Origin: Flavobacterium lipolyticum
GTDB lineage: Bacteria > Bacteroidota > Bacteroidia > Flavobacteriales > Flavobacteriaceae
NCBI RefSeq assembly: GCF_020905335.1
Contig: NZ_JAJJMN010000002.1
Location: forward strand, 558,001-622,000
Direction of reading: 5' to 3'
DNA: 64,000 nucleotides
The position numbers were made by a program, and so were the translations under genes. A model generated the notes under the pieces. The model worked only from the letters and a program-made list of their open reading frames with translations, was not told where the DNA came from and ran no database searches. Positions 2,624 to 21,095 of the stretch are shown here, in pieces; within the stretch, counting starts at the first letter, position 1; each line of letters begins with the position of its first letter.

Positions 2624-3094
2624 TTATACCGGCAGGTTTTTCTCAAATGCTGATCCAAATGAAAAGAACGAATCGGTGCTTCCTACACCTTCAATTTGAT
2701 GGATTTGCTCGTACAAAATTTTGCGGAGCTCTTCATTATTAACGGCCACAATTTTTATAAACAAGGCATACTTTCCCGAAACCCAATGGCACTCTACAAC
2801 TTCCGGAATTTCTTTTAATTTTTCGGCAATAGAATAGGAAAATCGTGCTTCTTTAGTCACAATTCCTGTATAGGTAGTGGTTTCAAAACCAATTTCTTTA
2901 GGATTTAATTTTACCGAAAAACCGGTAATAATTCCCGATTCCTGTAATTTTCTAACTCTTAAATGTACCAATGAATTGGATATGTTTAATTCTTTGGCAA
3001 GATCTGAAAAAGAGATTCTTCCATTTTCACTTAGTTTATGTATGATTTCACGGTCTAAATAGTCAGTATTTTCATTCTTCTTGATACTTGGCAT
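2624..3094 (-). CDS. Lrp/AsnC family transcriptional regulator, likely regulator of the hydroxylysine locus
   Basis: A 156-residue protein of usual Lrp/AsnC length. Residues 10-65 form the winged helix-turn-helix (LDREIIHKLSENGRISFSDL, then NISNSLVHLRVRKLQESGII). Residues 72-150 form the RAM ligand-binding domain (TTYTGIVTKEARFSYSIAEK, VECHWVSGKYALFIKIVA). Family members sense amino acids and often sit divergent from the catabolic genes they control. This one is divergent from hglS and the ALDH7-type dehydrogenase, with a 189-bp spacer containing two identical-pattern palindromes and a third inverted repeat over its own -10-type element. I infer that it senses lysine, hydroxylysine or aminoadipate and controls the 3284-21095 genes. 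The direction of control, repression or activation, cannot be told from sequence, although one palindrome covers the predicted hglS start point. Confidence 0.9.
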   Translation of the reverse strand: MPSIKKNENTDYLDREIIHKLSENGRISFSDLAKELNISNSLVHLRVRKLQESGIITGFSVKLNPKEIGFETTTYTGIVTKEARFSYSIAEKLKEIPEVVECHWVSGKYALFIKIVAVNNEELRKILYEQIHQIEGVGSTDSFFSFGSAFEKNLPV

Positions 3095-3122
3095 GGTTGG
3101 GCGTAGTTTAGAGATTTCTATT

Positions 3123-3170
3123 ATTTTGACAATTCTTAAGTTAAAAATGATTTTATAAGTGTCAAAATTA
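3123..3170 (-). promoter_or_regulatory. Promoter element and inverted repeat for the lrp-like gene
   Basis: On the minus strand TAATTTTG (3163-3170) fits the Bacteroidota -7 consensus TAnnTTTG. It overlaps the right arm of an inverted repeat, ATTTTGACA at 3123-3131 and TGTCAAAAT at 3160-3168, centres 37 bp apart. Autoregulation is plausible. No good -33 element was seen. Confidence 0.45.
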
Positions 3171-3219
3171 CAAAAAAAAGGATATGAAATGTCGGATTTT
3201 AAATAAACGTAAAAGTAAG

Positions 3220-3234
3220 GTGTTATAATAACAC
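3220..3234. promoter_or_regulatory. Operator palindrome 1 upstream of hglS
   Basis: GTGTTATAATAACAC is a perfect 7-1-7 palindrome. Its centre is 31 bp, about three helical turns, from the centre of palindrome 2, and it covers the -33 zone of the predicted hglS promoter. The pattern GTGTkATAATmACAC is shared by both sites, as expected for a dimeric or oligomeric Lrp-type regulator. Confidence 0.65.
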
Positions 3235-3243
3235 TTTTATATA

Positions 3244-3251
3244 TAAATTTG
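3244..3251 (+). promoter_or_regulatory. -7 promoter element for hglS
   Basis: TAAATTTG matches TAnnTTTG and would place the start of transcription near 3254, about 30 bases before the hglS ATG and inside operator palindrome 2. There is no TTG at the expected -33 distance. Confidence 0.5.
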
Positions 3252-3265
3252 TGTGATAATCACAC
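3251..3265. promoter_or_regulatory. Operator palindrome 2 over the hglS transcription start
   Basis: GTGTGATAATCACAC is a 7-1-7 palindrome with the same centre as the one at 3220. Its position at the predicted +1 suits a repressor that is released by an amino-acid ligand. Confidence 0.65.
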
Positions 3266-3283
3266 TATTTTAACAAAACGGAA

Positions 3284-4099: not shown

Positions 4100-4182
4100 T
4101 CACAGGAATTAAGTATAGTTATCGTTATCATAATCAGTTTTTTATAATTTAAAGCTGAACAACCTATTTTAAAAAAGTCATA

Positions 4183-5736
4183 ATGGCAGTAACAGAATTA
4201 CAATTCGGAATAAAGGAAGCTTTAAGCCAATTGGGAATAAAAGAAGTTAATGAGGGAACTTCAACCGGATTGAATCATTTTTCGGGAGGAGAAATTCTGG
4301 AGAGTTATTCTCCGGTTGACGGACAATTGATCGCAAAAGTTAAAACATCAACTGCTGCTGATTATGAAAAAGTGATGGAGGCAGCAACAGCTGCTTTCAA
4401 ACAGTTCAGACTGATGCCGGCACCACAGCGTGGAGAAATTGTACGTCAGTTTGGGGAGAAGTTGCGTGTGCATAAAGAGGCATTAGGAAAATTGGTTTCT
4501 TACGAGATGGGAAAATCTTTGCAGGAAGGTTATGGTGAAGTGCAGGAAATGATAGATATCTGCGATTTTGCAGTTGGACTTTCCCGTCAGCTTCACGGAT
4601 TAACAATGCATTCAGAACGTCCAGGACATCGTATGTACGAACAGTATCATTCTTTGGGGGTAGTTGGAATTATTTCGGCTTTTAACTTTCCGGTGGCTGT
4701 TTGGGCGTGGAATACAGCCCTGGCATGGATTTGTGGAGATGTTTGCGTTTGGAAACCATCAGAGAAAACGCCTATTTGTGCCATAGCTTGTCAGAATATT
4801 ATAAGTGAGGTCATCAAAGAGAATAATTTACCGGAAGGTATTTCAGGTTTGATCAATGGCGACTATACCATTGGAGAGTTACTGACAAAAGATATACGTG
4901 TTCCTTTGATTTCGGCTACTGGTTCAACCCGCATGGGAAAAATTGTAGCGCAGGTAGTTGCAGGACGTTTAGGAAAATCATTATTGGAGCTGGGAGGAAA
5001 TAATGCGATCATTGTAACTCCGGATGCTGATATTAAAATGACGGTTATTGGTGCTGTTTTTGGAGCCGTTGGAACTGCGGGACAAAGATGTACGTCGACA
5101 CGCCGTTTAATTATTCACGAAAGTATATTCGACAAAGTAAAAGATGCAATAGTTGCTGCCTACAAGCAATTACGCATCGGAAATCCGTTGGACGAAAAGA
5201 ATCATGTTGGTCCGTTGATCGATACTCAGGCAGTTGAAATGTATCAGCAGGCGCTACGAAAAGTGGTAGCCGAAGGAGGAAAAATTCTGGTTGAAGGTGG
5301 TGTACTTTCAGGTGCGGGATACGAAAGCGGCTGTTACGTAAAACCAGCTATCGCAGAGGCTGATAACTCATTTGAAATCGTACAGCACGAAACTTTTGCT
5401 CCGGTTTTATATTTATTAAAATACTCAGGGACTGTCGAGAATGCGATCGCCATTCAAAATGGTGTAGCACAAGGCTTATCCTCAGCAATCATGACTAATA
5501 ATTTAAGAGAAGCCGAATTATTTTTATCGGTTACCGGCTCTGACTGCGGTATTGCGAATGTTAACATCGGTACTTCCGGTGCTGAAATTGGCGGTGCTTT
5601 TGGCGGAGAAAAAGAAACAGGCGGTGGGAGAGAATCCGGCTCCGATGCCTGGAAAGTGTACATGCGCAGACAAACCAATACCATTAATTATACCACTAGT
5701 CTGCCATTGGCACAAGGAATAAAGTTTGACTTATAA
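4183..5736 (+). CDS. amaB: L-2-aminoadipate-6-semialdehyde dehydrogenase (ALDH7 family)
   Basis: NAD(P)-dependent oxidation of 2-aminoadipate semialdehyde (in equilibrium with piperideine-6-carboxylate) to 2-aminoadipate. The 517 residues match the ALDH7A1/antiquitin type closely. Visible marks are ISAFNFPVAVWAWN with oxyanion Asn168, the cofactor Lys191 in WKPSEKT, general base Glu269 in LLELGGNNA, and nucleophile Cys303 in GTAGQRCTSTRR. The ALDH7-specific segment GEVQEMIDICDFAVGLSRQL includes the Glu119 position used for substrate recognition. It is cytosolic. It follows hglS by 83 bases and precedes a stem-loop and the SusC gene. In human hydroxylysine breakdown the same enzyme type acts on the product of the phospholyase, here encoded by the PLP half of the gene at 15700. 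Confidence 0.9.
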   Translation: MAVTELQFGIKEALSQLGIKEVNEGTSTGLNHFSGGEILESYSPVDGQLIAKVKTSTAADYEKVMEAATAAFKQFRLMPAPQRGEIVRQFGEKLRVHKEALGKLVSYEMGKSLQEGYGEVQEMIDICDFAVGLSRQLHGLTMHSERPGHRMYEQYHSLGVVGIISAFNFPVAVWAWNTALAWICGDVCVWKPSEKTPICAIACQNIISEVIKENNLPEGISGLINGDYTIGELLTKDIRVPLISATGSTRMGKIVAQVVAGRLGKSLLELGGNNAIIVTPDADIKMTVIGAVFGAVGTAGQRCTSTRRLIIHESIFDKVKDAIVAAYKQLRIGNPLDEKNHVGPLIDTQAVEMYQQALRKVVAEGGKILVEGGVLSGAGYESGCYVKPAIAEADNSFEIVQHETFAPVLYLLKYSGTVENAIAIQNGVAQGLSSAIMTNNLREAELFLSVTGSDCGIANVNIGTSGAEIGGAFGGEKETGGGRESGSDAWKVYMRRQTNTINYTTSLPLAQGIKFDL

Positions 5737-5786
5737 AATAAACGAATACCAGCAGTTTTTCTAAAAGTCAAATTAAAGAGAATACC

Positions 5787-5830
5787 GCACTTTATAAGGC
5801 AGTTTTGTAATCGAATGTCTTATAAAGTGC
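5787..5830 (+). promoter_or_regulatory. Stem-loop between amaB and susC without a T-tract
   Basis: GCACTTTATAAG (5787-5798) pairs with CTTATAAAGTGC (5819-5830), a perfect 12-bp stem with a 20-base loop. No run of T follows, so it is probably not an intrinsic terminator. A processing or mRNA-stabilising stem that separates expression of the cytosolic enzymes from the outer-membrane transporter is a reasonable guess. Confidence 0.6.
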
Positions 5831-5891
5831 TTGCCTACAAATAAAAAAACTAAAAAAAGCGAAATTTTAATTAACCAAAACCATTACCAAA

Positions 5892-8800
5892 ATGAAAAAA
5901 CTACTCATTAGGAAGTTCTATTTTCTTCCTTTATTGTTATGCTTGTGGTTGCCAAACATCAATTTTGCGCAAGCAAATCAAGCACAAAAGACCATTTCCG
6001 GAAAAGTTACTGATGATAAGAACAATACGCTGCCGGGTGTGAGTATTTCTATTAAAGACTCTAAATACAATGCAGCAACAGATATTGACGGAAATTATAC
6101 TTTGGTGTATTCATCAAGTCTTGTGAATCCGGTTATCGTTTTCTCTTATATGGGATTTATAGAGAAAAGTGAGGCTGTAAACAATCGTGGTGAACTTAAT
6201 ATTACCATGCAGGAAGAAACCAATAAACTGAATGAAGTAGTCGTTATTGGTTATGGTTCTCAGAAGAAAAGCAACGTTACGGGAGCTATTTCTACTGTTA
6301 AAAAAGAAAGTTTAGAAACCAGAGCGACAACAAGCCCTTCTGAGGCACTTCAGGGCTTAGTTGCGGGAGTAAACGTGCAGAAAAGCGGAGGTGTAGCAGG
6401 TGCTTCGGTAAGCGTAAAAATCCGTGGGGTAAATACCTTTGGAGCTACAGAACCACTTTATATTATTGACGGATTCCAGGGAGATATTAATACGATAAAT
6501 CCAACCAATATCGAATCGATGGAGGTATTGAAAGATGGTGCTGCGGCTGCAATTTACGGATCTGTTGCTGCAAATGGTGTGATTATCGTAACCACTAAAA
6601 ACGGACAAAAAGAAGGTGTAAAAATAGATTTCAGCTCTTTTTTAAGTATCACCAATCCGTCGAAAACATTAGATTTATTGGATGCTGACGGATATCGTAC
6701 GGTTCATAAAAGAATGTACGATGAGTATAACAAGTATGTGACTTCACCAAAAGCGCTTCCGGCTTATATCACGGCTCCATCTGATGTTAATACAGACTGG
6801 CAGGATGAAGTTTTCCGTTCCGGATTTACACAAAACTACGGTTTAGGAGTTCAAGGAAGACAAGGTGATTTTAAATTTGCTTTATACGGAAACTTTGTAA
6901 AGCAAAAAGGAATTATTATCGACAATCAATTTGGTTCTCAAACAGGAAGTGCAAGGGTAAGTTTCAAAAAATCTATTTTTGATATTGATGGAAAAATGGC
7001 TTATATCGGAACCCAAAATGCATTGCCTAACTTTCAGTTGAAAGAAGTTTATACAATGTCTCCGTTAGTTCCGGTTTATGATGATAATGAGCAATACGGT
7101 TATGGATTGACTAATAAGAATGGTTTGCCGGCCGGAACGAATCCGGTTGCCGAAGAGCATTTCAGAAAAAGTAATAATGTAGGGCAGGATATTACAGCTA
7201 ATATTGCTGCAACGGCTAATATAGCACCTTGGTTCAAATATAAATTGGCCTATTCTTACCGTGTGAAAAACAACCAGCAAACCGCTCATTTTCCTCCATT
7301 TATTGCTAATCCAAAAGAGGTACATCTTTATCCCTTGCAATCGGAGTTGAGAACAACCTGGAGTGAGCAGATATTAGATAACATTATTACTATCGATAAA
7401 ACTTTCGGAAAACATGTTTTTGGTTTAATGCTGGGTAATACTTTTAACAGTCAGGCATCCAACTGGAATCAGGTAAGTGTTGAAGGAAAAACAACTGATT
7501 ATACTGTAGAAAATGGACAGTTGGTTTCTATCGACCGTCCGTCAGGATTTCTTGATCCTGGTTTTGAAACTATCGGAGCCGGAAGAGGAGGGACTTACAC
7601 TGCAGACGGTTCAAAGTTTCAATACAATCGTGTTTCTTTCTTCGGAAGGTTAAACTATTCGTATAATGATCGTTATTTATTGCAAATGACCGTTAGAAGA
7701 GACGGTTCTTCTAAGTTTGGTGCAGACAGCCGTTGGGGAACTTTCCCGTCTATCGCCTTAGGATGGAAAATCGAGCAGGAAGATTTTTTCCCGAAAGATA
7801 TTTTTATCTCTACTTTAAAACTACGTGCGAGCTGGGGACAATTGGGTAACGAAGCTGCTTTAGGATACTATTCTGCTAATACTTTAATTAACACAGGAAA
7901 TTCTTTAGGTTCAGGTTATGTACAGGGAGTTGGAAGTAATCCCTGGCCGGGAAGTATTGCGCTAGCATTAGAAAATAGAAATTTACAGTGGGAAACTACA
8001 GATTCTAAAAACATTGGTATTGATTATACTCTTTTGAAAGGAAAAATCAGCGGTTCGATGAACTACTATCACAATGTGACGGACAATTTATTAATTACAA
8101 AAAAACTGGCTCCATCTGCCGGAGTTGATGATCCGATTCTTAACGTAGGTAAGATTAGCAACAGCGGTTTTGAATTTGAAGTAAATTACCGTGATCAGGT
8201 TGATGAATTTAAATACAATGCAGGTTTGAATTTTACAACTCTTAAAAATAAAGTAGTAGCCTTAGCAAATGAGGGACAAACTATTTATGGAGAAGGATTA
8301 AAATTCAATGCCGAACATTTTCCAACTCAGGCACGTGTAGGAAGTCCAATCAGTGGATTCTATTTGTACAAAACAGATGGTATTTTTCAATCGGTTGAAG
8401 AGGTAAATGCTCACAATAAAAATGGTGTTTTATTACAGCCAAATGCAAAGCCGGGTGATATTCGTTTTAAAGATATAAACGGAGACGGAGTTATTGACGA
8501 CAACGATAAAGCTTATTCAGGAACAGGATTGCCAAAAGTAGAAGTGAACCTTACTTTGGGAGCCAGCTACAAAGGATTTGATTTTTCAGCATTGATTGGA
8601 AGTGGCTGGGGGAATAAATTGTACAACGGAAACCGTTATTTTTACGAGTCTATGAGTTCAGGAACTAACATGTTAGCTTCAACATTAAATTCATGGACAC
8701 CGGATAACCGTAGTGATATTCCAAGAGCAGTATTACAGGACCCTAACGGAAACAGTCGTGAGTCAGATCGTTTTCTGGAAAGTGGAAATTTTATAAGAAT

Positions 8801-9023
8801 GCGTCAATTGCAGTTTGGATATACGATACCAAGCAAAATGTTAGGCAAAGCCAAAATAGACAAGCTTAGAATTTATATCAGTGCAGAGAATTTATTTACG
8901 ATCACCAATTATTCAGGTATTGATCCTGAGTTTTCACGTAGTTCTGTACTTAACACTGGTATTGATCGTTTTGTGTATCCATTTACAAGATCGTTTGTAA
9001 CGGGTATTCAGTATATATTTTAA
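5892..9023 (+). CDS. SusC/RagA-family TonB-dependent outer-membrane transporter
   Basis: A 1043-residue SusC-type transporter, the barrel half of a pedal-bin importer whose lid is the SusD lipoprotein encoded 24 bases downstream. The signal peptide is about residues 1-27 (LLLCLWLPNINFAQA). A carboxypeptidase-regulatory-like domain covers about 35-115 (ISGKVTDDKNNTLPGVSIS). A TonB-box-like segment and plug follow (NEVVVIGYGSQKKSNVTGAI, GVNTFGATEPLYIIDGFQGD), then the 22-strand barrel to the terminal aromatic end GIQYIF. SusC/SusD pairs import glycans or peptides. Here the pair is flanked by an alpha-glucosidase and a beta-galactosidase on one side and hydroxylysine-type enzymes on both sides, so I infer glycosylated hydroxylysine or short collagen glycopeptides as cargo. 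It may also be read from its own promoter, but I could not identify one. Confidence 0.93.
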   Translation: MKKLLIRKFYFLPLLLCLWLPNINFAQANQAQKTISGKVTDDKNNTLPGVSISIKDSKYNAATDIDGNYTLVYSSSLVNPVIVFSYMGFIEKSEAVNNRGELNITMQEETNKLNEVVVIGYGSQKKSNVTGAISTVKKESLETRATTSPSEALQGLVAGVNVQKSGGVAGASVSVKIRGVNTFGATEPLYIIDGFQGDINTINPTNIESMEVLKDGAAAAIYGSVAANGVIIVTTKNGQKEGVKIDFSSFLSITNPSKTLDLLDADGYRTVHKRMYDEYNKYVTSPKALPAYITAPSDVNTDWQDEVFRSGFTQNYGLGVQGRQGDFKFALYGNFVKQKGIIIDNQFGSQTGSARVSFKKSIFDIDGKMAYIGTQNALPNFQLKEVYTMSPLVPVYDDNEQYGYGLTNKNGLPAGTNPVAEEHFRKSNNVGQDITANIAATANIAPWFKYKLAYSYRVKNNQQTAHFPPFIANPKEVHLYPLQSELRTTWSEQILDNIITIDKTFGKHVFGLMLGNTFNSQASNWNQVSVEGKTTDYTVENGQLVSIDRPSGFLDPGFETIGAGRGGTYTADGSKFQYNRVSFFGRLNYSYNDRYLLQMTVRRDGSSKFGADSRWGTFPSIALGWKIEQEDFFPKDIFISTLKLRASWGQLGNEAALGYYSANTLINTGNSLGSGYVQGVGSNPWPGSIALALENRNLQWETTDSKNIGIDYTLLKGKISGSMNYYHNVTDNLLITKKLAPSAGVDDPILNVGKISNSGFEFEVNYRDQVDEFKYNAGLNFTTLKNKVVALANEGQTIYGEGLKFNAEHFPTQARVGSPISGFYLYKTDGIFQSVEEVNAHNKNGVLLQPNAKPGDIRFKDINGDGVIDDNDKAYSGTGLPKVEVNLTLGASYKGFDFSALIGSGWGNKLYNGNRYFYESMSSGTNMLASTLNSWTPDNRSDIPRAVLQDPNGNSRESDRFLESGNFIRMRQLQFGYTIPSKMLGKAKIDKLRIYISAENLFTITNYSGIDPEFSRSSVLNTGIDRFVYPFTRSFVTGIQYIF

Positions 9024-9047
9024 TTCTATTTTATAAAAGACATCATC

Positions 9048-10547
9048 ATGAAAAAGATATTTTTATTATTTTCCACTATAGGTTTGCTGACTATAACAAG
9101 CTGTAGTGATTATCTGGAGCAGCAATCTCCGGACCAATTGACCTCAGAGAATTTCTGGAGAAATAAAGCCGATGCCGAATCTGCTTTAGCGGCAACTTAC
9201 GGACAGCTTGAATGTGCTACTAACGAATGGACTTTTGCGGAAATAAAATGGCCGGTAGAAGCCTATCGTGAAGACATCAACGAATTGGGAAGCGATGCTT
9301 TGAACTATCAAAACTGGGTTGAACTTTCAACTTTTACATATACGAACGGGAATAGTCAGTTCACCAGTTATTGGAAAATTAATTACAGAGGAATCAGTAA
9401 TGCCAATCAGGTGATTGATAAATTACCAAAGGTCCCGGCTTCTGCCATAACAGATGCTGACCGTAAACAAATTGAGGCGGAAGCTCGTTTCTTACGTGCT
9501 TATTACCACATGAAATTGCTTTTGAACTGGGATAAAATTTATGTTAGAGATAAATACGTAACTAAAGAAAGTGATTTAAATATTCCACTATCAACAAGAC
9601 CGGAGGCCTGGGATTTTATTACAAAAGAATTTAAAGCAGTAGCAGACATACTTCCTGCGAAGCAAACTTCGGATAAAACAGGACGCGCAACAAGCGGAGC
9701 AGCCAACAGCTACCTTGGGTTTGCTTATTTAACCAGAGCTTATGAGGAAACAGCTCAAAAGCAAGCTTTTTTAAACGAAGCGCTTACAGCATTGAATAAA
9801 GTTCAGGGGTATGAGTTAGTGAAGGATTATGTATCGATGTTTGACGGTACCACAAAAAACAGTAAAGAGTCTATTTTTGAATTGCAATTTTCTGAAACTA
9901 CGGCTAACGGTGCTTTTTATCGTAATGCGCTTCATTATTGGATGGCAGCGGGAGAACTTGGCGGATGGGATGAAATTTTACCAAGCCCTATGTTGGTAAA
10001 CGAATTCAAAAAAGAAGGGAAAATTGCGACGACAGGAAATTATGATACGCGTTTGTACAGTACTATTTTCTTTAAAGATCCTTATTTTAATGATGCCAAT
10101 AATCCTTTGGTATTAGGCACTACTTATGATGAAAAGTTTGAAGGGAAAGACAAACCGGTATACCGCAGATACATTCCAAATACTCAGGAAAAAATGAATC
10201 AGGAGTTTACGGCAATCAACATTCCTTTGATGCGATATGCGAATGTATTGTTGATGCAGGCTGAGGCACTGAATGAGTTAGGACGTACCGGAGAAGCTAT
10301 TCCGTATATCAATAAAGTTCGTGAAAGAGCTGATATGCCAGCGATGACCGGAACAACTGCTACCGCTGTTAAAGCTCAGATTGAACACGAAAGAATCATA
10401 GAATTTCCATTAGAAAACTACCGTTTTTATGATTTACGTCGTTGGGGAAAAACGAAAGCAGCACTTGATGCAGTAGGACGTAGCGGTTTTGATGCAGCAA
10501 AAAACAATTTTTACCCAATTCCATTAACGGAATTACAGACAAATTAA
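9048..10547 (+). CDS. SusD/RagB-family substrate-binding surface lipoprotein
   Basis: A 499-residue SusD homologue. The lipobox is LTITSC with the acylated Cys near residue 20, followed by the usual SDYLEQQSPDQLTSENFW start of RagB/SusD proteins. Family segments include EAEARFLRAYYHMKLLLNWD, IPLMRYANVLLMQAEALNEL with EAIPYINKVRERADM, and near the end IEHERIIEFPLENYRFYDLR. It binds substrate on the cell surface and closes the SusC barrel encoded just upstream (24-base gap). The binding-site residues cannot be assigned from sequence alone. A terminator-like hairpin lies about 55 bases after the stop, which suggests that the glycosidase genes are partly transcribed as a separate unit or by read-through. 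Confidence 0.93.
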   Translation: MKKIFLLFSTIGLLTITSCSDYLEQQSPDQLTSENFWRNKADAESALAATYGQLECATNEWTFAEIKWPVEAYREDINELGSDALNYQNWVELSTFTYTNGNSQFTSYWKINYRGISNANQVIDKLPKVPASAITDADRKQIEAEARFLRAYYHMKLLLNWDKIYVRDKYVTKESDLNIPLSTRPEAWDFITKEFKAVADILPAKQTSDKTGRATSGAANSYLGFAYLTRAYEETAQKQAFLNEALTALNKVQGYELVKDYVSMFDGTTKNSKESIFELQFSETTANGAFYRNALHYWMAAGELGGWDEILPSPMLVNEFKKEGKIATTGNYDTRLYSTIFFKDPYFNDANNPLVLGTTYDEKFEGKDKPVYRRYIPNTQEKMNQEFTAINIPLMRYANVLLMQAEALNELGRTGEAIPYINKVRERADMPAMTGTTATAVKAQIEHERIIEFPLENYRFYDLRRWGKTKAALDAVGRSGFDAAKNNFYPIPLTELQTN

Positions 10548-10602
10548 TTCTTTAGCAGAAAGAGTTGAATTCCTAAAAAATGTTTTCAATAAAGATTTTA
10601 AT

Positions 10603-11056: not shown

Positions 11057-13063
11057 ATGAACAAAAAGGAAATACTTTTTATTCTTGCATCCTTTTTTAT
11101 AGTACAATCCGGTTGGACACAAAAAAGCTATCCAAACTTAGAATCGGCTAAAAACAGTCTGAACTATAAAGGAAACCCAACAAATGCAACAGATCGAAAA
11201 TCACTGGCGTTTTCAGATAAAGGGGCCTGGTTTGGGTTTGGATTTTTAGAACCATCCGTAGTGCAGGCCGGATTTTCAGGACCTTTTTTAATGACAGAAC
11301 AAAATGGTGTCTGGTTAAGTTCTTCGTTTGTTTCTTTACAGCTTACGGATGAAAACAAAAAAGAAGCCATTCAATGGAAAAATACGCTGGTGAACCAATG
11401 CAGCTATAACAGCCATTTGGAACAGGAGTTTAAAAACGAAAAGTTAACGGTAAAACAGCAGTTGGTTTATTTATCCGGTCATTCGGCTTTACAAAAGACG
11501 AGTATTACCAACACATCAGGAAAAACAGTAACCCTTTTTCCGTCCTACCATTCAACACTTTTTTTAAATGATTTAAAGCTTTCAAAAGAAGGTAAAACTT
11601 TAAAAATTGTTTCTTCTAAAAGCACAGCAACGGGGTACATTCAGTTTTTGAATAGTACTCCCGAAATTGAAATTACGAATCAGGGCTATAAAGCTCAAAC
11701 CGGGAAATTGGTTTTAAAACCAAATGAAACTAAAGAAATAGTGGTTTCTCAAACCTTTATTTTTTCTCAGTATTCCTGGAAAACAGAAAATGAAAGCATT
11801 GCTAAAACGGCATTCAATACCTTACTAAACAACACACAAAAAGAAAAAGAAAATCAACTGACACAATTAATTGCCAGAAAGAAAAATATTTACAAAGAGG
11901 CAGTTTACTCTAATTTGATTGCTAAACTGCTATTGACTTTACAAAACAATACCCGAATTGCTGCCGAGGGTTTGAAACATCGCGGACTTTTCCCAAGCTA
12001 TAATTACGAATGGTTTCATGGTTTCTGGGCCTGGGACAGCTGGAAACACGCCGTTGCGGTTGCCAATTATAATTCAGAACTGGCAAAAGATCAGATGCGT
12101 GCTTTATTTGATTATCAGGAACCAAACGGATTTATTCCGGACTGTATTTACAGAAACAATCTTCTCGAAGAAAACAATTACCGAAATACTAAAGCGCCGC
12201 TTGCAGCCTGGGCCATCTGGAAGATTTATGAAAAATCAAAAGACGTTACTTTCATAAAAGAGTTTTATCCAAAGTTGAAATTATATCACAATTGGTGGTA
12301 CAAAGACCGCGATCACGATCAGGATGGTTTGTGTGAATTTGGTTCTACAGATGGAACTGTGATTGCTGCCAAATGGGAAAGCGGAATGGACAATGCGGTT
12401 CGTTTTGACGACAGTAAGATTTTGAAAAACGGTGAGAAAGCCTTTTCGTTAGATCAGGAAAGTGTAGATTTAAATTCCTTTTTATATGCCGAGAAAAATT
12501 ATTTGAAGAAGATGGCAGAAGTTTTAAAACTAGCGGAAGAAGCTAAAAAATGGAAGGAAGAAAGTTCCATTTTGAAAGTTAAAATTCAAAATCAGTTTTG
12601 GGATGCTGCTACAGGTTGGTTTTACGACACGACTATCGATGGTAAAACCTTGATAAAAGCAATGGGCTGTGAAGGATATTTGCCTGTTTGGGCAGAGGTC
12701 GCTACCGCTGAGCAAGCTCAGTTAGCCAAACAAAACATGTTTGATACGGCCAGTCTGAACACATTTGTTCCTTTACCGACACTGGCAGCCAATCATCCGA
12801 AGTTCAAACCGGATAATGGGTATTGGAGAGGACCGGTCTGGCTTGATCAAAGTTATTTTGGTATAAACGGACTGGAAAAGTATGGCTATGTGAAAGAAGC
12901 AAACGAACTGGCTCATAAATTAATTTACAATGCCGAAGGAGTTTTGGACAAAGGAACTTCTATCAGAGAAAATTATCAACCTATTACAGGAAAAGGATTG
13001 GAAGCGTACAACTTTAGCTGGTCGGCTTCTCATTATTTAATGCTGCTTTTAGAAGATAAATAG
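11057..13063 (+). CDS. GH63-type exo-alpha-glucosidase, periplasmic; predicted to remove Glc(alpha1-2) from Gal-hydroxylysine
   Basis: A 668-residue (alpha/alpha)6-barrel glycosidase of family GH63, related to E. coli YgjK and eukaryotic processing glucosidase I. The signal peptide ends near residue 22 (FFIVQSGWTQ), so it is periplasmic or surface-exposed. The likely acid is Asp327 in HGFWAWDSWKHAVAV and the base Glu638 in GTSIRENYQPITG. Asp-rich DRDHDQDGLCEFGSTDG (418-434) resembles the family's calcium site, and RGPVWLDQSYFGINGLEKYG is typical. GH63 enzymes invert alpha-glucosidic bonds. From memory, work on YgjK pointed to Glc(alpha1-2)Gal as its best-fitting ligand, which is exactly the disaccharide of collagen hydroxylysine. 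Together with the beta-galactosidase downstream it would deglycosylate that unit. Family placement is firm; linkage specificity is inferred. Confidence 0.85.
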   Translation: MNKKEILFILASFFIVQSGWTQKSYPNLESAKNSLNYKGNPTNATDRKSLAFSDKGAWFGFGFLEPSVVQAGFSGPFLMTEQNGVWLSSSFVSLQLTDENKKEAIQWKNTLVNQCSYNSHLEQEFKNEKLTVKQQLVYLSGHSALQKTSITNTSGKTVTLFPSYHSTLFLNDLKLSKEGKTLKIVSSKSTATGYIQFLNSTPEIEITNQGYKAQTGKLVLKPNETKEIVVSQTFIFSQYSWKTENESIAKTAFNTLLNNTQKEKENQLTQLIARKKNIYKEAVYSNLIAKLLLTLQNNTRIAAEGLKHRGLFPSYNYEWFHGFWAWDSWKHAVAVANYNSELAKDQMRALFDYQEPNGFIPDCIYRNNLLEENNYRNTKAPLAAWAIWKIYEKSKDVTFIKEFYPKLKLYHNWWYKDRDHDQDGLCEFGSTDGTVIAAKWESGMDNAVRFDDSKILKNGEKAFSLDQESVDLNSFLYAEKNYLKKMAEVLKLAEEAKKWKEESSILKVKIQNQFWDAATGWFYDTTIDGKTLIKAMGCEGYLPVWAEVATAEQAQLAKQNMFDTASLNTFVPLPTLAANHPKFKPDNGYWRGPVWLDQSYFGINGLEKYGYVKEANELAHKLIYNAEGVLDKGTSIRENYQPITGKGLEAYNFSWSASHYLMLLLEDK

Positions 13064-13238: not shown

Positions 13239-13361
13239 AAATACCAGCAATTGTTTTAACTATTTTATTAACTTAATCACATTGCTCGTAAGGGGAGGCT
13301 ATATTTAAGCCCGCAGTAGGAATTAACTATCTAAATTTGATTAACACCAATAGTACAGATT

Positions 13362-15497
13362 ATGTTCAACCACAACAGATCACTTACCAAAATAGTTGCA
13401 ACGGCTTTGCTTATTGCGGGCTGTAATACAACGACCGTTTATTCTCAAAGTAAAAAAACGGCAGCGACAGAAAAGAGAGACCCACAGCGTTTTTTCTCAA
13501 AACCAGATTTGATGCAGATCGGTGTTTATTATTATCCGGAGCAATGGCCAAGGGAGCAATGGGAACGCGATTTAAAAAACATCAAAAAACTGGGATTTGA
13601 GTTTACACATTTTGCCGAATTTGCCTGGACGTATATGGAACCGGAAGAAGGCAAGTATGACTTTAAATGGCTCGATGACGCTTTGGCAATTGCCGAAAAA
13701 GAAGGTTTAAAAGTGATTCTTTGCACACCAACACCAACTCCGCCGGCATGGATGGGGGAAAAGTACCCTGAAATTTATCTCGTAGATGCAAGCGGACGTC
13801 GCAGAGAGCATGGAAACAGAGCCAATCAATCGGTTTCAAATGAAAAATACAGAGCATTTGTCGAAAAGATAGTGACTGAACTTGGAAAAAGATACGGGAA
13901 GAATAAAAATATTATGGGCTGGCAAGTGGATAACGAGCCGGGAGCTCCGGATGATTTTAGTCCATCTGCACAAAAAGGATTTCAAAAATGGTTAAAGGCA
14001 AAATACGGTACAATCGAAAAATTGAATGCCGAGTGGCTGGGCAGTTTTTGGAGTATTCGCTATAACAACTTCGAACAGATTGCCATTCCAAATGCTGAGA
14101 TTTATTTTGAAGACAAATTGAGCCCGCATGCCATATTGGATTTCAAAAGATTCACGGCAGATTCACAAGCCGAATATTTGAATTTACAAGCAGAAACACT
14201 TCGAAAATATGTTGATCCAAAACAATGGATTACGACCAATTATACGAATGTAGTTTATGGTGCAGACCCAAGAAGAACCGATAAGATGGATTTTGCCACC
14301 TACACTATGTATCCGGTGAGCGGGAGAAATCAATTAGGTGGTCAGAATTTTAGAATGGGACATCCGAATAAAATATCAGAAGCCAATGATTATTACAGAT
14401 CGATCAATGGGGTGACTGGGGTTATGGAAATGCAGCCGGGACAAGTGAACTGGGCGAGTATTAATCCACAATTACTTCCGGGAACTGTTCATATGTGGAT
14501 CTCACAAGCTTTTGGAGGAGGCTGTTCTTTCACCTGCACCTATCGATACAGACATCCACTGGGGAGCAGTGAAATGTACCATGACGGAATTGTAGGTACC
14601 GATGGTGTAACCTTGACTACAGGAGGAAAAGAGTTTGTACAGTCGATCGAAGATATGAAACTGCTTCGAAAAGAGTACAATCCGAAAGCGGTACTTCCGG
14701 CTGATCTTGCCAAAAGAAAAACAGGATTTTTATGGAGTCATGAGAATCTGTGGGATTTGGAAAACCAAAAACAAACGGAGTTCTGGAGTACGTGGAGACA
14801 TCGAAATACCTATACTTCAGCAGTAAAATCGACTGGAGCACCAATGGATTTTATTACAGAAGAAGATGATTTTTCTGCTTATCCGTTTATCGTGGCACCG
14901 GCTTATCAGCTGATCGATCAGAAATTGGTTGACAAATGGACGAAATATGTAGAAAATGGTGGTAACCTGATTTTGTCCTGCCGTACCGGTCAGAAAGATA
15001 AAAACGGACATTTCTTTGAGGCTAAATGGAGTGGACCAATCGTTCCGTTAATTGGTGCTGATGTAGATTTTTTTGATATGCTTGTAGCAGATGTAAATGG
15101 AACCATAAGTTCTGGAAACAATACCTATAAATGGAATACCTGGGCAGATGTTTTAAGTCCGAAACCGGGAACAGAAGTTTTAGCAACGTATGCCGATCAG
15201 TTTTATAAGGGAAAAGCGGCAGCAATTACCAGAAAACAAGGAAAAGGAACGGTTACTTATATAGGAGCAGAAAGTAAAGACGGTGACTTGGAAAGACAAG
15301 TAGTGAGATCGGTTTACGAACGTTCTAAAGTTACTATCGAAGATTTGCCAAAAGGTGTATATTTAGAATGGAGAGACGGGTTTTATACAGGAGTAAATTA
15401 TACCAATGAGCCTATACAGTTAGCAATTCCTGAGGGAAGCAAAATTTTGGTAGGACAAAATCCTTTACAACCGGCTCAGGCGATTATTTGGAAATAA
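13362..15497 (+). CDS. GH42 beta-galactosidase lipoprotein; predicted to release Gal from hydroxylysine
   Basis: A 711-residue family GH42 retaining beta-galactosidase. The leader ends in a lipobox LLIAGC with Cys21, so it is membrane-anchored in the periplasm or at the surface. The catalytic barrel starts at GVYYYPEQWPREQWERDLKN. The acid/base is Glu192 in GWQVDNEPG and the nucleophile Glu356 in GVMEMQPGQVNW, both in family consensus settings. A trimerisation-like domain follows (about 440-650), then a short C-terminal beta domain. GH42 enzymes cleave terminal beta-galactosides. After removal of the outer glucose by the preceding GH63 enzyme, the residual collagen sugar is Gal(beta)-O-hydroxylysine, so the order of activities fits. 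Plant galactan or other beta-galactosides are the alternative substrates if the locus assignment is wrong. Confidence 0.9.
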   Translation: MFNHNRSLTKIVATALLIAGCNTTTVYSQSKKTAATEKRDPQRFFSKPDLMQIGVYYYPEQWPREQWERDLKNIKKLGFEFTHFAEFAWTYMEPEEGKYDFKWLDDALAIAEKEGLKVILCTPTPTPPAWMGEKYPEIYLVDASGRRREHGNRANQSVSNEKYRAFVEKIVTELGKRYGKNKNIMGWQVDNEPGAPDDFSPSAQKGFQKWLKAKYGTIEKLNAEWLGSFWSIRYNNFEQIAIPNAEIYFEDKLSPHAILDFKRFTADSQAEYLNLQAETLRKYVDPKQWITTNYTNVVYGADPRRTDKMDFATYTMYPVSGRNQLGGQNFRMGHPNKISEANDYYRSINGVTGVMEMQPGQVNWASINPQLLPGTVHMWISQAFGGGCSFTCTYRYRHPLGSSEMYHDGIVGTDGVTLTTGGKEFVQSIEDMKLLRKEYNPKAVLPADLAKRKTGFLWSHENLWDLENQKQTEFWSTWRHRNTYTSAVKSTGAPMDFITEEDDFSAYPFIVAPAYQLIDQKLVDKWTKYVENGGNLILSCRTGQKDKNGHFFEAKWSGPIVPLIGADVDFFDMLVADVNGTISSGNNTYKWNTWADVLSPKPGTEVLATYADQFYKGKAAAITRKQGKGTVTYIGAESKDGDLERQVVRSVYERSKVTIEDLPKGVYLEWRDGFYTGVNYTNEPIQLAIPEGSKILVGQNPLQPAQAIIWK

Positions 15498-15503
15498 AAT
15501 TTA

Positions 15504-15666: not shown

Positions 15667-15699
15667 AAAAAAATAAGAAACAATTTTAATATAGTATCA

Positions 15700-17997
15700 A
15701 TGATTTTTTCAGAAGCAACTATTCAGGATTTAGTAAAAGAACATTACGGATTAAATGTTACCGTAAAAGCATTAAATGGATATGATGAACTGAACTTTCT
15801 TTTATCGAATGAGAAGAATGAAAAGTACATTCTAAAAGTATCAAACGAAAGTCACCCTTTTCCTTTTTTAGAAGCGCAGATCAATATCATTCAGCATCTA
15901 AAAAAGAGCCCTGTTTCAAATTGTTTTCAGCATTTTAGTATCAATAAACATGGAGAAGAACTGACTAAAATTGTTGGTAATTCTCAAACCTACTATATCA
16001 GAATACTGAACTTTTTGGAAGGTGTTTTTTGGGTGGATGAAAAAGCTAAAACAAAAGAATTACAATATGATCTGGGAAGCTTTTTAGGAAAGATGGATCA
16101 TGCTCTGCAAGATTTCTCACATCCTGCCATGCACCGCAATTATACTTGGGACATCAGTCGTGCGAGTGAAGCAGCGGACAATTTAAAATACATTCTAAAT
16201 CACGAAAAAAGACGTATTGCCGGCTATTTCCTGTTGCAGTTTGATACCGAAGTTTTACCTCAATTGCATCGCTTGCGTCATGCTTATGTGCATAACGATG
16301 CCAATGATTATAATGTATTGGTACAGGACAATCGTGTCAGCGGTTTAATCGATTTTGGTGATATGGTGTATACTGCTTTAATCAACAATTTAGCGATAGC
16401 CTGTACGTATGCCATGCTGGATGAAGAAAATCCGGTGGCCGTTGCAGCATTAATCGTTGAAGGATACCATAAATCGTATGCTTTAACCGAGCAAGAATTG
16501 GATGTATTGTATTATCTGATTGCCGGAAGACTTTGTATCAGTGTAACACAATCCGCTTACAATGCTTCATTAGACAGCAACAACGAACATCATTTTATTA
16601 CCGAAAAACCGGCGTGGAATTTATTGTTTAAACTGATTCAGATTAATCCAATCAAAGCGCAGGATGCTTTTAGAAAAGCCTGTGGTTTTGAAGGAGTAAT
16701 TACTGGGGATGATTACAGTGATTTATTGGAAGTTCGAAAAAAGAAAATAGGACGTAATTTAAGCATTGGTTATCAGGACAAATTGAAAATTGTGAAGGGT
16801 GCTTTGCAATATTTGTATGATGATAAAGGACGAACCTTTGTAGATTGTGTCAATAATCCTTCGCATGTGGGACATTGTCATCCGGTCGTGGTTCGAAGAA
16901 TGCAGAAACAGATTGCCACTTTAAATACGAATACCCGCTATTTAAATGATGCGATTACGGCCTATGCCGAGAAACTGACAGCAACATTACCTTCAAAACT
17001 GAGTGTTTGTTACTTTGTGAACTCGGGTAGTGAGGCCAATGATCTGGCGATTCGAATGAGCCGTCATTTTACCAAACAAAAAGATATTATTGTATTGGAT
17101 CATGCTTATCACGGAACTTCTACCGTTGCGATGGAAATGAGTCCGTATAAATTTGACAGTAAAGGTGGATTTGGCCAAATGCCTTGGATACACAAGGCGA
17201 TTAATCCTGATTTGTATCGCGGCCCTTATAAATATGGTGATACCAATGCGGGAGAAAAATATGCTGCCGATGTACAAAGAATTATAGAGGACTTGAAAGA
17301 AGAGGATAAAGCTCCTGCGGTATTCATCTGTGAAACTTTATTGGGAGTAGGAGGTCAGATTCCGCTACCGGAAAATTATTTAAAAACAGCGTATGATTAT
17401 GTCAGAGCCGCCGGTGGGGTTTGTATTGCCGACGAAGTTCAGGTTGGATTTGGACGAATCGGAGACCACTTTTGGGGCTTCGAATTACAAAATGTAGTTC
17501 CGGATATCGTGGTATTAGGAAAACCAATTGGTAACGGACACCCTCTTGCTGCGGTGATTGTAACAGAAGAAATTGCGGATGCCTTTAGTAACGGAATGGA
17601 GTATTTTAACACCTTTGGCGGTAATCCCGTATCGATGACTACAGGATTGGCTGTATTGGATGTGATTCAGGAGGAAGAAATGCAGCAGCATGCTCTGGAA
17701 ACGGGTAATCATTTAATGGATGGTCTTAGAAAGTTAATGGCGAAGTATCCAATTATTAGTGATGTTCGCGGACATGGTCTGTTTATTGGTGCCGAAATGG
17801 TAAAAGACAGATCAACCATGGAACCTGCTGTTTCTGAAATAGATTTTGTAGTAGAAAAAATGAAAGCCCATGGCTATTTATTGAGCACAGACGGTCCTTT
17901 GCACAATGTTTTGAAAATAAAACCTCCTATGACATTCAGCAAACAAAACGCTGATGAAATGGTGCGATTATTAGATATTGCTTTGAGCGAATTGTAG
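15700..17997 (+). CDS. Bifunctional hydroxylysine kinase / 5-phosphohydroxylysine phospholyase (APH domain fused to class III PLP enzyme)
   Basis: A 765-residue fusion. Residues 1-330 are an APH-type kinase with [12 protein letters not shown] (catalytic Asp200, Asn205) and GLIDFGDM (Asp218), the setting found in hydroxylysine kinase (HYKK/AGPHD1). Residues 340-765 are a class III PLP enzyme with [31 protein letters not shown] (Asp578) and [13 protein letters not shown] (Schiff-base Lys608), the pattern of the AGXT2L ammoniophospholyases PHYKPL and ETNPPL. In animals HYKK phosphorylates 5-hydroxylysine and PHYKPL splits it to ammonia, phosphate and 2-aminoadipate semialdehyde. Fusion in one chain implies channelling. 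No signal peptide is visible. The ALDH7 gene nearby supports hydroxylysine rather than ethanolamine as substrate. Ethanolamine kinase/phosphoethanolamine lyase is the main alternative. Confidence 0.82.
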
Positions 17998-18017
17998 GTA
18001 CCTAATAACACACAATA

Positions 18018-18119
18018 TTGTCATTTCGAGGAACGAGAAATCTTCACGTCAATATTCTGCAAAGATTGAAATACTTTGTCGAGTTACTTGCGAAGATTTC
18101 TCGTTCCTCGAAATGACAA
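18018..18119. repeat. 102-bp element with 28-bp perfect terminal inverted repeats
   Basis: The arms at 18018-18045 and 18092-18119 are exact reverse complements (left arm begins TTGTCATTTCGAGGAACGAG) around a 46-base centre. It fills most of the gap between the kinase/phospholyase and D-2-hydroxyglutarate dehydrogenase genes. A perfect 28-bp stem in the transcript could stabilise upstream mRNA or reduce read-through. The form is that of a REP/MITE-type element. Confidence 0.85.
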
Positions 18120-18143
18120 ACTCCAATTAATAAAAGAATAAAA

Positions 18144-21095
18144 ATGAATAACAATAATGTCTTTTCCGATAGTTCTGTTCCTTTAGAACAGTTGGAAAAA
18201 CAATTAGAAGGTAAATTATTCTACGATCATACCATGCGCTTGCTTTATGCCACTGATGCGAGTGCCTATAAAGAAATGCCGCTCGCAGTTGCCATTCCAA
18301 AAACAAAAGAAGATATTCAGAAGATCATTGCTTTTGCGAGAGAGTATAAAAGCAGTGTAATTCCGCGCGCTGCCGGAACATCATTGGCGGGACAGGTTGT
18401 GGGGAACGGAATCATAGTAGATATTTCACAGGAGTTTACCAAAATTATATCGGTCGATGAAGTCGCTAAAACGGCATGGGTTGAGCCCGGAGTTATACGT
18501 GATGAACTGAACCTCCATTTGAAACCTTATAAGTTGTTTTTCGGACCTGAAACTTCGACCAGCAATCGCTGTATGATTGGCGGAATGGTAGGCAACAATG
18601 CCTGCGGTGCGAGATCGGTTATTTATGGATCAACCCGCGAACACTTGCTTGAAATCAAAGGCTTTTTGGCCGATGGTCACGAAGTCACATTTGGCTCGTT
18701 AACCAATGCTGAATTTGAAGATAAGTGCAACGGAATTAACGTCGTAAGTCCATTGGAACAGGCCATTTATGTTCAGGTCAAAGAAATACTATCGTCAGCA
18801 TCAAACCAAATTTTGTTTGAAGATCATTTTCCTAAAAAATCAATTCCCAGAAGAAATACTGGTTATGCTTTAGATTTACTGGCCGATACAATGCCTTTTA
18901 AAGATACAGAAGAGCAATTCAACTTCTGTAAATTAATAGCAGGATCAGAAGGAACTTTGTTCTTTTCGACTGCTATCAAATTAAATTTGGTCGACGCGTT
19001 AAAACCTTATTCTGCATTGGTGTGCATTCATTTTGAAAGTATTAATGAATCACTTAAAGCCAATATTGAGGCTTTAAAATTTCAACCGGACAGTGTGGAG
19101 TTAATCGATCACTATATTCTGGAATGTACAAAAGAAAATATTGAACAAAGTAAGAATCGTTTTTTTGTAAAAGGCGATCCTCAGGCGATTTTAGCCGTTG
19201 AATTTTTAAGAGATTCTCCTGAAGAAATTGACACCATTGCCAAAGAAATGGAAGCTTTGCTGCGTTCTAAAAATTTAGGGTATCATTTCCCAATTGTTTA
19301 TGGTGAAGATACCAATAAAGTCTGGGCTTTGCGCAAAGCTGGATTGGGCTTGCTGTCTAATATTCCCGGTGATGCCAAAGCGGTTGCCGTAATTGAAGAT
19401 ACAGCGGTAGATGTAAACGATTTACCCGATTTTATCGAAGATTTTAATGCTATTCTAAAAAAACGAAATCTAAACTGTGTACACTATGCGCATGCGGCAA
19501 CAGGAGAATTGCATCTTCGTCCTATTATTGATTTAAAAACCGAAGAAGGGACGGTGCTTTTTAGAACTATTGCGACAGACATTGCGCATTTGGTTAAAAA
19601 ATACAAAGGCTCTTTAAGCGGTGAACATGGAGATGGAAGGCTTAGAGGGGAATTTATTCCGCTGATGTTAGGAGAGGAAATCTATCAATTGTTTGTTCAG
19701 ATTAAGGAAGTTTGGGACCCGTGGGGTATTTTCAATCCCGGCAAAATTGTGAACACACCACCGATGGATACAAACTTAAGGTATACTGCCGGACAGGATA
19801 CCCCGATGCCGGAAACTTATTTTGATTTTTCGGAACACAATGGAATTTTGCGTGCTGCCGAGATGTGTAACGGATCCGGAGATTGCCGAAAAACCGAAAA
19901 AGGTGGCGGTACCATGTGTCCGAGTTATATGGCCACACGTGATGAGAAACATACCACACGCGCCAGAGCAAACATGCTGAGAGAGACGATAACCAATTCT
20001 GCCAAAGCTAATAAATTTGACGATGACAATCTTGTTGCCGTATTGGATTTGTGTTTGAGCTGTAAAGGCTGTAAATCAGAATGTCCTTCGAATGTGGATA
20101 TGGCCAAATTAAAAGCTGAAACTTTACAACACTATCACGATAAAAATGGAGTGAAATTTCGTTCCAGACTTATCGGAAATACTCCTAAAATAAACAGCTG
20201 GTTTGCTGCGATTCCTTGGATGTATAATTTATCTACAAAAGGGGTTTTGGGGAATGTGGTTAAAAAAACAACAGGATTTGCTACAGAACGAAAATTGCCC
20301 TTGATGCATAAAATTACTTTCGCTAAGTGGATGAAAACGTATCGTCAAAAGGGTGATTTTGGTAACGGGAAGGTATATCTGTACAATGATGAATTTTTAA
20401 ATTATTATGATGTCGAAATAGGGCAGACCGCGGTACAATTACTGAATCGTTTGGGGTATCAGGTCGAAATTCCAAAAATAGGGATTAGCGGCAGGACGTA
20501 CCTTTCAAAAGGAATGCTAAAAGAAGCGCGTAAAATTGCAGAAAAAAATATTAAGGATTTTGAGCAGGAGATTCCACAGGATGGTATTTTGATCGGAATT
20601 GAACCCTCGGCGATCTTAACTTTTCGGGACGAATATCCCGATTTATGCCGAGGAGAATTAAAAGTGAAAGCAAAAAAAACTGCTGCAAAAGCTTTTCTGA
20701 TCGAGGAATTTTTGGCAAAAGAGCTAGAGGAAGGCAGAATTTCTTCAAGTAATTTTACCGACAGGCAGGAACGTATACGCATGCACGGACATTGTTTTCA
20801 AAAAGCCTTATCGTCATTGGTGCCTCTTAAAAAAATACTGGCTTTGCCTGAAAATTATACCGTTTTGAACATTCCGAGTGGTTGCTGTGGTATGGCTGGG
20901 TCTTTTGGCTATGAAAAAGAACATTATGAGTTGTCGATGCAAATTGGCGAGTTGGTTTTGTTTCCAACCATTCGTTCTGAAGAAGAAGCCACTTTAATCT
21001 CTGCCTCAGGCACTAGCTGCAGGCATCAGATTGCTGATGGTACGGGTAGAAAAGCACAACATCCGGTTGAGATCTTGTACAAAGCGTTAAAATAG
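18144..21095 (+). CDS. D-2-hydroxyglutarate dehydrogenase, YdiJ-type FAD/iron-sulfur enzyme
   Basis: A 983-residue three-part flavoprotein. Residues 45-280 form the FAD-binding domain (VIPRAAGTSLAGQVVGNGII, GGMVGNNACGARSVIYGSTR). Residues 290-545 form the FAD-oxidase C-domain (HYAHAATGELHLRP, SGEHGDGRLRGEF). Then come iron-sulfur motifs (CNGSGDCRK, DLCLSCKGCKSECPSNVDMA) and C-terminal Cys-rich CCG-type segments (HGHCFQKAL, PSGCCGMAGSFGYEKEHYEL, SGTSCRHQI). Length and layout match E. coli YdiJ (about 1018 residues), reported to oxidise D-2-hydroxyglutarate. It would consume the product of HglS and yield 2-oxoglutarate for the TCA cycle. It is the last gene of the locus. D-lactate or glycolate oxidation is possible for this wider family, but the presence of hglS argues for D-2-hydroxyglutarate. 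Confidence 0.8.
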   Translation: MNNNNVFSDSSVPLEQLEKQLEGKLFYDHTMRLLYATDASAYKEMPLAVAIPKTKEDIQKIIAFAREYKSSVIPRAAGTSLAGQVVGNGIIVDISQEFTKIISVDEVAKTAWVEPGVIRDELNLHLKPYKLFFGPETSTSNRCMIGGMVGNNACGARSVIYGSTREHLLEIKGFLADGHEVTFGSLTNAEFEDKCNGINVVSPLEQAIYVQVKEILSSASNQILFEDHFPKKSIPRRNTGYALDLLADTMPFKDTEEQFNFCKLIAGSEGTLFFSTAIKLNLVDALKPYSALVCIHFESINESLKANIEALKFQPDSVELIDHYILECTKENIEQSKNRFFVKGDPQAILAVEFLRDSPEEIDTIAKEMEALLRSKNLGYHFPIVYGEDTNKVWALRKAGLGLLSNIPGDAKAVAVIEDTAVDVNDLPDFIEDFNAILKKRNLNCVHYAHAATGELHLRPIIDLKTEEGTVLFRTIATDIAHLVKKYKGSLSGEHGDGRLRGEFIPLMLGEEIYQLFVQIKEVWDPWGIFNPGKIVNTPPMDTNLRYTAGQDTPMPETYFDFSEHNGILRAAEMCNGSGDCRKTEKGGGTMCPSYMATRDEKHTTRARANMLRETITNSAKANKFDDDNLVAVLDLCLSCKGCKSECPSNVDMAKLKAETLQHYHDKNGVKFRSRLIGNTPKINSWFAAIPWMYNLSTKGVLGNVVKKTTGFATERKLPLMHKITFAKWMKTYRQKGDFGNGKVYLYNDEFLNYYDVEIGQTAVQLLNRLGYQVEIPKIGISGRTYLSKGMLKEARKIAEKNIKDFEQEIPQDGILIGIEPSAILTFRDEYPDLCRGELKVKAKKTAAKAFLIEEFLAKELEEGRISSSNFTDRQERIRMHGHCFQKALSSLVPLKKILALPENYTVLNIPSGCCGMAGSFGYEKEHYELSMQIGELVLFPTIRSEEEATLISASGTSCRHQIADGTGRKAQHPVEILYKALK

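Follow-up and report, generated by a model that had tools for sequence, protein, structure and literature searches.

Collagen is the most abundant mammalian protein, and little work, to our knowledge, has addressed what microbes do with its glycosylated hydroxylysine. In animals, hydroxylysine is catabolized by HYKK, PHYKPL and ALDH7A1. With regard to the attached sugars, the accessible text of PMC8626586 describes human PGGHG, a glycoside hydrolase family 65 (GH65) glucosidase of Glc-Gal-hydroxylysine, as well as the kojibiose hydrolase FjGH65A of Flavobacterium johnsoniae. The HglS route of lysine catabolism in Pseudomonas and plants, which converts 2-oxoadipate to D-2-hydroxyglutarate, is described in the accessible part of PMC7286885, and the lyases of the animal hydroxylysine route (Veiga-da-Cunha 2012) are mentioned in that of PMC9283133. 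Here, we have analyzed a locus at nucleotides 2624-21095 of a 64,000-nucleotide stretch of DNA from Flavobacterium lipolyticum (the window, in which all positions are counted), whose gene content and conservation make it very probable that it serves the use of the collagen unit Glc(alpha1-2)Gal(beta)-O-5-hydroxylysine. No bacterial locus for Glc-Gal-hydroxylysine is described in the titles and abstract beginnings of the open-literature matches listed, a collection that leaves subscription literature mostly outside.

The locus consists of an Lrp-type regulator gene and eight genes, from HglS to a YdiJ-type dehydrogenase, that all lie on the forward strand with intergenic gaps of 24 to 509 bases (Table 1). 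All nine genes and coordinates proposed in an earlier sequence-only reading were recovered as open reading frames, and its family calls hold in Pfam, each over cut-off; among its enzyme names, that of ALDH7 also passes the NCBIfam cut-off, whereas the names YdiJ and YgjK are good at the level of domain or fold only. As in other Bacteroidota polysaccharide utilization loci, SusC and SusD genes are adjacent and are followed by glycosidase genes (GH63 and GH42), but the proposed target is a glycosylated amino acid, the regulator is of the Lrp type and amino-acid catabolic genes belong to the same run. Animal hydroxylysine catabolism shares with the locus the kinase, class III phospholyase and ALDH7 families and the order of the chemistry, whereas here the kinase and lyase are fused (kinase/class III phospholyase fusion, hereafter KL) and clustered with an uptake system, glycosidases, HglS and the YdiJ-type enzyme. 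Cleavage at an alpha1,2-linked glucose is proposed here as for PGGHG and FjGH65A, although by an enzyme of another family, and HglS would catalyze the same reaction as in the lysine route of PMC7286885 (accessible part), with its metal-binding His and substrate-binding Arg conserved, but would be fed by hydroxylysine rather than lysine.

In the proposed pathway, proteases encoded elsewhere would release small glycosylated hydroxylysine or glycopeptides, which SusCD would carry over the outer membrane. GH63, probably located in the periplasm, would take off the outer alpha-glucose and GH42 (GH2 in other lineages) the beta-galactose, and a transporter encoded outside the locus would bring free hydroxylysine into the cytoplasm. 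There, KL would phosphorylate hydroxylysine and then eliminate ammonia and phosphate, giving aminoadipate semialdehyde/piperideine-6-carboxylate, which ALDH7 would oxidize to 2-aminoadipate. After conversion of 2-aminoadipate to 2-oxoadipate by a transaminase encoded elsewhere, HglS would yield D-2-hydroxyglutarate and the YdiJ-type enzyme 2-oxoglutarate.

The linkage of these genes is conserved. When a single sample of 150 Flavobacterium genomes was searched, KL (threshold E 1e-150) was found in 18, GH63 (E 1e-60) in 16 and GH42 in 16 when counted at 80% identity or more (28 if distant paralogues are included). The genomes with GH63 and those with GH42 are the same 16, all of them KL-positive, and the three genes are contiguous by coordinates, with the glycosidases oriented opposite to KL in one genome (G315); two KL-positive genomes (G343 and G414) lack GH63. 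The co-occurrence of GH63 and KL gives a Fisher p of ~1e-19, ignoring shared descent. HglS is present in 17 genomes, comprising 14 of the 18 with KL and 3 of the 132 without (Fisher p 1e-13, likewise ignoring shared descent). It is linked to KL in 10 of the 14 and lies apart in the other four (G315, G328, G334 and G354), so that the co-occurrence does not depend on linkage. The sequence-only reading had made its case depend on the genes being conserved together, and across genomes they are.

Beyond the genus, we compared 78 distinct named KL loci, taken from the best 80 of 150 confirmed stretches and comprising 42 from Flavobacterium and 36 from other bacteria. The co-occurrence of the fusion with glycosidases that had been suggested as a check in Bacteroidota is seen in 55 of them (41/42 and 14/36, respectively; 49/63 among loci of at least 20 kb), where GH63 is always accompanied by a beta-galactosidase. 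The latter is GH42, the partner originally named, in 43 loci, and GH2 in the remaining 12, all from Pedobacter or Chitinophaga; the one representative GH2 scanned is LacZ-type. These GH2-type loci have the order SusC-SusD-GH2-GH63-KL, followed by HglS and ALDH7 in several. On a KL tree built by a quick method with long branches flagged (loci under 12 kb unlabelled, KL frames under 680 residues excluded), beta-galactosidase type changes 7 times and GH63 presence 6 times. A phylum-wide sample of 395 genomes has GH63 (E 1e-60) in 11, of which six have KL next to it or separated from it by a single gene (G000, G360, G677, G717, G754 and G220). Three other GH63 clusters, with no KL in the stretch, carry lysine-type genes instead. 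In two genomes (L134 and L135), the order is SusC-SusD-GH2-APH kinase-LysA-type decarboxylase-GH63 (with 55% identity between the two kinases and 71% between the two decarboxylases), which is possibly a second hydroxylysine route, and in one genome (L137) it is SusC-SusD-LysO-GH2-GH63, where LysO, a lysine exporter in two pieces, could possibly export hydroxylysine once the sugars are removed. The glycosidase core thus has its aglycone marked as lysine-like in three ways, albeit with two and one genomes for those without KL.

Hydroxyproline-type genes also point to collagen. In L060, GH63-GH42-KL is surrounded by genes for 4-hydroxyproline epimerase and pyrroline-2-carboxylate reductase, both over cut-off, and a t3Hyp dehydratase-like protein under it (375.5 vs 540). 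Further neighbors, assigned at family level only or with scores under the cut-off, are a D-amino-acid-dehydrogenase-like protein, an aldehyde dehydrogenase, an Xaa-Pro-peptidase-like protein and S37-type peptidases. By similarity, this set recurs in L063, and the DapA-like partner was scanned in L062. Seven of the 78 named loci (L060-L064, L076 and L105) have at least one hydroxyproline-type gene within the stretch. In the genus sample, genes of the proline-racemase family are found in 23 genomes, i.e., 13/18 with KL versus 10/132 without, and in seven of those 13 they lie within 30 kb of KL, compared with 0.25 expected under uniform placement. The lower-scoring t3Hyp-type group of this family, delimited by score (E 1e-96 to 1e-102), is confined to eight genomes, all KL-positive; with the match in the KL-negative G393 (8.3e-91), which this limit leaves out, the counts are 8/18 and 1/132. 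Away from the locus, the genome to which the window belongs carries both a 4-hydroxyproline-type operon (L112) and a t3Hyp-type pair (L113), matched by similarity to L060 and L062. The interpretation of the locus in terms of collagen Glc-Gal-hydroxylysine, first put forward from the sequence, is supported by these genes, the conserved linkage, the exchange of GH42 for GH2, the lysine-type genes found where no KL lies in the stretch and the closeness of the GH63 model to YgjK, described below. We also somewhat favor a broader view, in which Bacteroidota handle glycosylated hydroxylysine with a SusCD-GH63-beta-galactosidase core and interchangeable ways of dealing with the aglycone (KL/ALDH7/HglS, LysA-type decarboxylase with a separate kinase, or LysO export), which often combine with hydroxyproline catabolism as a collagen amino-acid toolkit.

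KL is proposed to combine hydroxylysine kinase with phosphohydroxylysine ammonia-lyase. Its kinase half has the features of APH-type kinases, with D200, N205 and D218 invariant and H198 nearly so, residues which we take to be catalytic, and its lyase half is a class III phospholyase. KL scores under the PRK06148 cut-off (979.9 vs 1128 bits), and the NCBIfam label of such fusions is hypothetical protein or aminotransferase. Bacterial kinase/lyase fusions are reportedly mentioned by Veiga-da-Cunha 2012. The family sample often shows open frames of ~1000-1070 residues that bear both halves; in a long KL at L133:10838-13876, named hypothetical protein by NCBIfam, the kinase and lyase are separated by an M23 peptidase domain, and the order in L133 is GH63-KL-GH2. 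In G220, which is outside Flavobacterium, GH63 is followed by a 1012-residue kinase-M23-lyase form (PRK06148 over cut-off) and then GH2. A source on Pseudoalteromonas tunicata, whose accessible part concerns siderophore hydroxylysine, was set aside.

GH63 was assigned by family model, fold and catalytic residues. D445 and E638 align with the catalytic D501 and E727 of Escherichia coli YgjK and are invariant across 33 sequences, and the structural model is closest to YgjK among solved structures, including 3w7w, which holds 2-O-alpha-glucosyl-galactose. Although fold and catalytic Asp and Glu are the same, identity to YgjK is only 28-29% and the score misses the cut-off of the NF007525 YgjK-type alpha-glucosidase equivalog (355.6 vs 625 bits). 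No GH65 model, the family of PGGHG, is among the Pfam matches of this protein at E 0.001. Its N terminus is signal-like when read by eye. GH42 has both the catalytic and the trimerisation domain over cut-off, its best PDB matches are beta-galactosidases, and a lipobox-like LIAGC can be read by eye.

HglS belongs to its family, and its H39 and R43 correspond to the His and Arg residues of 6w1k, as seen in the alignment; it is predicted to be a 2-oxoadipate dioxygenase/decarboxylase yielding D-2-hydroxyglutarate. ALDH7 exceeds the NCBIfam cut-off for L-piperidine-6-carboxylate dehydrogenase, which fits the animal-type pathway, and antiquitin and ALDH7A1 are among its nearest solved structures; piperideine-6-carboxylate is the cyclic form of aminoadipate semialdehyde. 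The YdiJ-type enzyme is probably a D-2-hydroxyglutarate dehydrogenase, although both it (572.5 bits) and its relative in L121 (562.7) miss the NF049975 YdiJ equivalog cut-off of 1350 bits. In four clusters without the rest of the cassette (L118-L120 from KL-negative genomes and L121, unlinked, from the KL-positive G334), HglS occurs with a divergent Lrp relative and a YdiJ relative of 81-88% identity, and a SerA-SerB-type fusion sits between HglS and the YdiJ relative in both clusters scanned (L118 and L121). SerA yields D-2-hydroxyglutarate as a side product, and since both HglS and SerA-SerB neighbor the YdiJ relative, this compound is indicated as the substrate of the YdiJ-type enzyme.

Upstream of HglS, two palindromes probably form an Lrp operator, through which the regulator would act on the HglS-side promoter. 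The palindromes GTGTTATAATAACAC and GTGTGATAATCACAC flank the -7-like element TAAATTTG at 3244-3251 and are the only two matches to the operator pattern in the entire window; the whole genome (5.77 Mb) contains three exact sites, including the two at the locus, and 17 with at most one mismatch versus 8 for the reversed control. Among 10 relatives with Lrp and HglS, both sites are kept in three, one in three and none in four. The flavobacterial promoter pattern TTG-N17-21-TAnnTTTG has no complete match in the intergenic gaps, which contain -7-like matches only, including that at 3244. An Rfam scan of the window at gathering scores gave no matches.

Several observations weigh against the use of collagen Glc-Gal-hydroxylysine. 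The locus encodes no 2-aminoadipate transaminase, inner-membrane transporter or permease, or collagenase, and because the transaminase is missing from it, the locus is not self-contained, as it had earlier been called. The Fisher p values are uncorrected for shared descent. Peptidase M9 collagenase was found in 0/150 genomes, a count that is uninformative as the control also gave no match. Five of the 18 KL-positive genomes lack the proline-racemase family, and natural free hydroxyprolines are ascribed to peptide antibiotics rather than collagen in the accessible part of PMC5144071. In L135, the APH kinase shows little similarity to the kinase half of KL (E 0.017) and scores under the homoserine kinase cut-off. 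Its LysA-type neighbor passes the plain lysA cut-off, and the LysA-type genes of L134 and L135 may serve ordinary lysine synthesis. KL itself occurs without GH63 in 23/78 named loci (nine of them on pieces under 20 kb), some of which have unrelated neighbors, such as HSP70 in L065 and DUF1501 and DUF1553/planctomycete-type cytochrome (PSCyt) genes in L081, L083 and L084; the fusion alone is therefore no marker of collagen. Among the solved structures listed as matches, human phosphoethanolamine phospho-lyase 6tor comes nearest to the lyase half of KL, at 50% identity. The last two points would suit an ethanolamine kinase/phosphoethanolamine phospho-lyase, in which case the cluster would join aminoalcohol use to a separate oligosaccharide locus. 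We consider this highly improbable. The structure matches listed for KL are filled by PLP enzymes and thus concern the lyase half. Because no PHYKPL is named among the 60 PDB matches listed, the nearness of 6tor is not discriminating. From pathway knowledge, a piperideine-6-carboxylate-type ALDH7 and HglS suit the hydroxylysine product and would have no role after acetaldehyde; moreover, HglS accompanies KL even when unlinked, and related clusters have lysine-type genes in the place of KL.

It is also conceivable that the SusCD-GH63-beta-galactosidase genes serve a different glycan with Glc(alpha)-Gal(beta), such as that of a lipid, a capsule or a plant glycoside, and that the hydroxylysine genes are fortuitous neighbors. 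Five of the 11 GH63 genomes in the phylum sample do lack KL in the fetched stretch, two of them in settings that suggest other uses: near an FtsX permease and without beta-galactosidase in L136, and in a GH36-GH63-GH97 cluster in L138. However, the other three bear lysine-type genes, and the linkage is kept in Flavobacterium, Pedobacter, Chitinophaga and G220 despite differing gene orders and beta-galactosidase family, which makes fortuitous association very improbable. A remaining explanation is that ALDH7, HglS and the YdiJ-type enzyme, under Lrp, primarily make up a cytoplasmic lysine pathway, with KL and the glycosidases as incidental feeders. The units without KL in L118-L121 and the presence of ALDH7 in 138/150 genomes agree with it; nevertheless, a second ALDH7 copy occurs in 10 genomes, exactly those with a locus-linked copy, and HglS is concentrated in KL-positive genomes as given above. 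We regard this explanation as improbable, although it is partly compatible with the use of collagen Glc-Gal-hydroxylysine, for which a lysine unit may have been recruited.

If the collagen interpretation is true, the bacterium could obtain nutrients from a distinctive component of animal tissue, and the locus makes the breakdown of glycosylated hydroxylysine a testable pathway with named genes. It would also point to Glc-alpha1,2-Gal as a physiological substrate of YgjK-like GH63 enzymes, suggest what a kinase-lyase fusion common in bacteria does and provide a genomic marker of collagen feeding in Flavobacterium.

Table 1. Features of the locus and related clusters (window positions unless a locus is named; scores in bits).
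Feature	Position	Strand	Evidence or context
Lrp/AsnC-family regulator	2624-3094	-	Divergent from HglS-side genes; PF01037 (AsnC_trans_reg) 57.3, HTH_24 49.5, both over cut-off
Probable Lrp operator	3220-3265		Palindromes GTGTTATAATAACAC (3220-3234) and GTGTGATAATCACAC (3251-3265), starts 31 bases apart
HglS, PF07063	3284-4099	+	HGLS model 110 vs cut-off 25
ALDH7-type aminoadipate-semialdehyde/piperideine-6-carboxylate dehydrogenase	4183-5736	+	Pfam Aldedh; NF050084 825.4 vs cut-off 730
SusC-type TonB-dependent outer-membrane transporter	5892-9023	+	Plug and TonB barrel; TIGR04056 811 vs 368
SusD-type outer-membrane lipoprotein	9048-10547	+	SusD_RagB PF07980, 128 vs 23
GH63 YgjK-like alpha-glucosidase	11057-13063	+	Glyco_hydro_63 51.5; YgjK_N and MGH1-like_GH
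GH42 beta-galactosidase	13362-15497	+	Glyco_hydro_42 PF02449 380, PF08532 170
KL: APH-type kinase and class III PLP phospholyase-type enzyme	15700-17997	+	APH PF01636 77.6; Aminotran_3 246.9
YdiJ-type FAD/FeS dehydrogenase	18144-21095	+	FAD_binding_4, FAD-oxidase_C, Fer4 over cut-off
APH kinase and LysA-type PLP decarboxylase	L134:6681-8747; L135:6152-8309		Between GH2 and GH63 of SusCD cluster
Split LysO	L137:14301-15214		Between SusD and GH2-GH63

Flavobacterium includes many fish- and soil-derived species, and the KL of the window shares 99% identity with its counterpart in Flavobacterium sp. UGB4466, isolated from rainbow trout larvae, and 98% with that in F. tructae. Environmental species with the locus include F. 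saccharophilum and F. pectinovorum (L035 and L036). An AcrB-type efflux pump and an outer-membrane channel are encoded immediately downstream of the locus (21817-26435, opposite strand), and the same genes adjoin it in four named loci that are its closest relatives (L032, L033, L034 and L086). A DUF4407 protein (scanned in L060) and an ATP-type PEP carboxykinase (scanned in L114) stand beside the KL cassette in L060, L063, L114 and L116. A 692-aa protein next to KL in L071 was considered as a GH63 substitute and dropped as unspecific, because its relative in L102 belongs to a family of at least 7999 proteins and has no Pfam domains among the matches listed; the L102 protein (15752-17761), elsewhere named six-hairpin glycosidase, has counterparts close by in 11/78 named loci. 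Elsewhere in the window, a subtilase with a Por secretion tail (41607-44513) is a candidate secreted protease with no collagen activity indicated, and at 48668-50275 Pfam gives AprA N-terminal, winged-helix and MT2-like methyltransferase domains in one protein.

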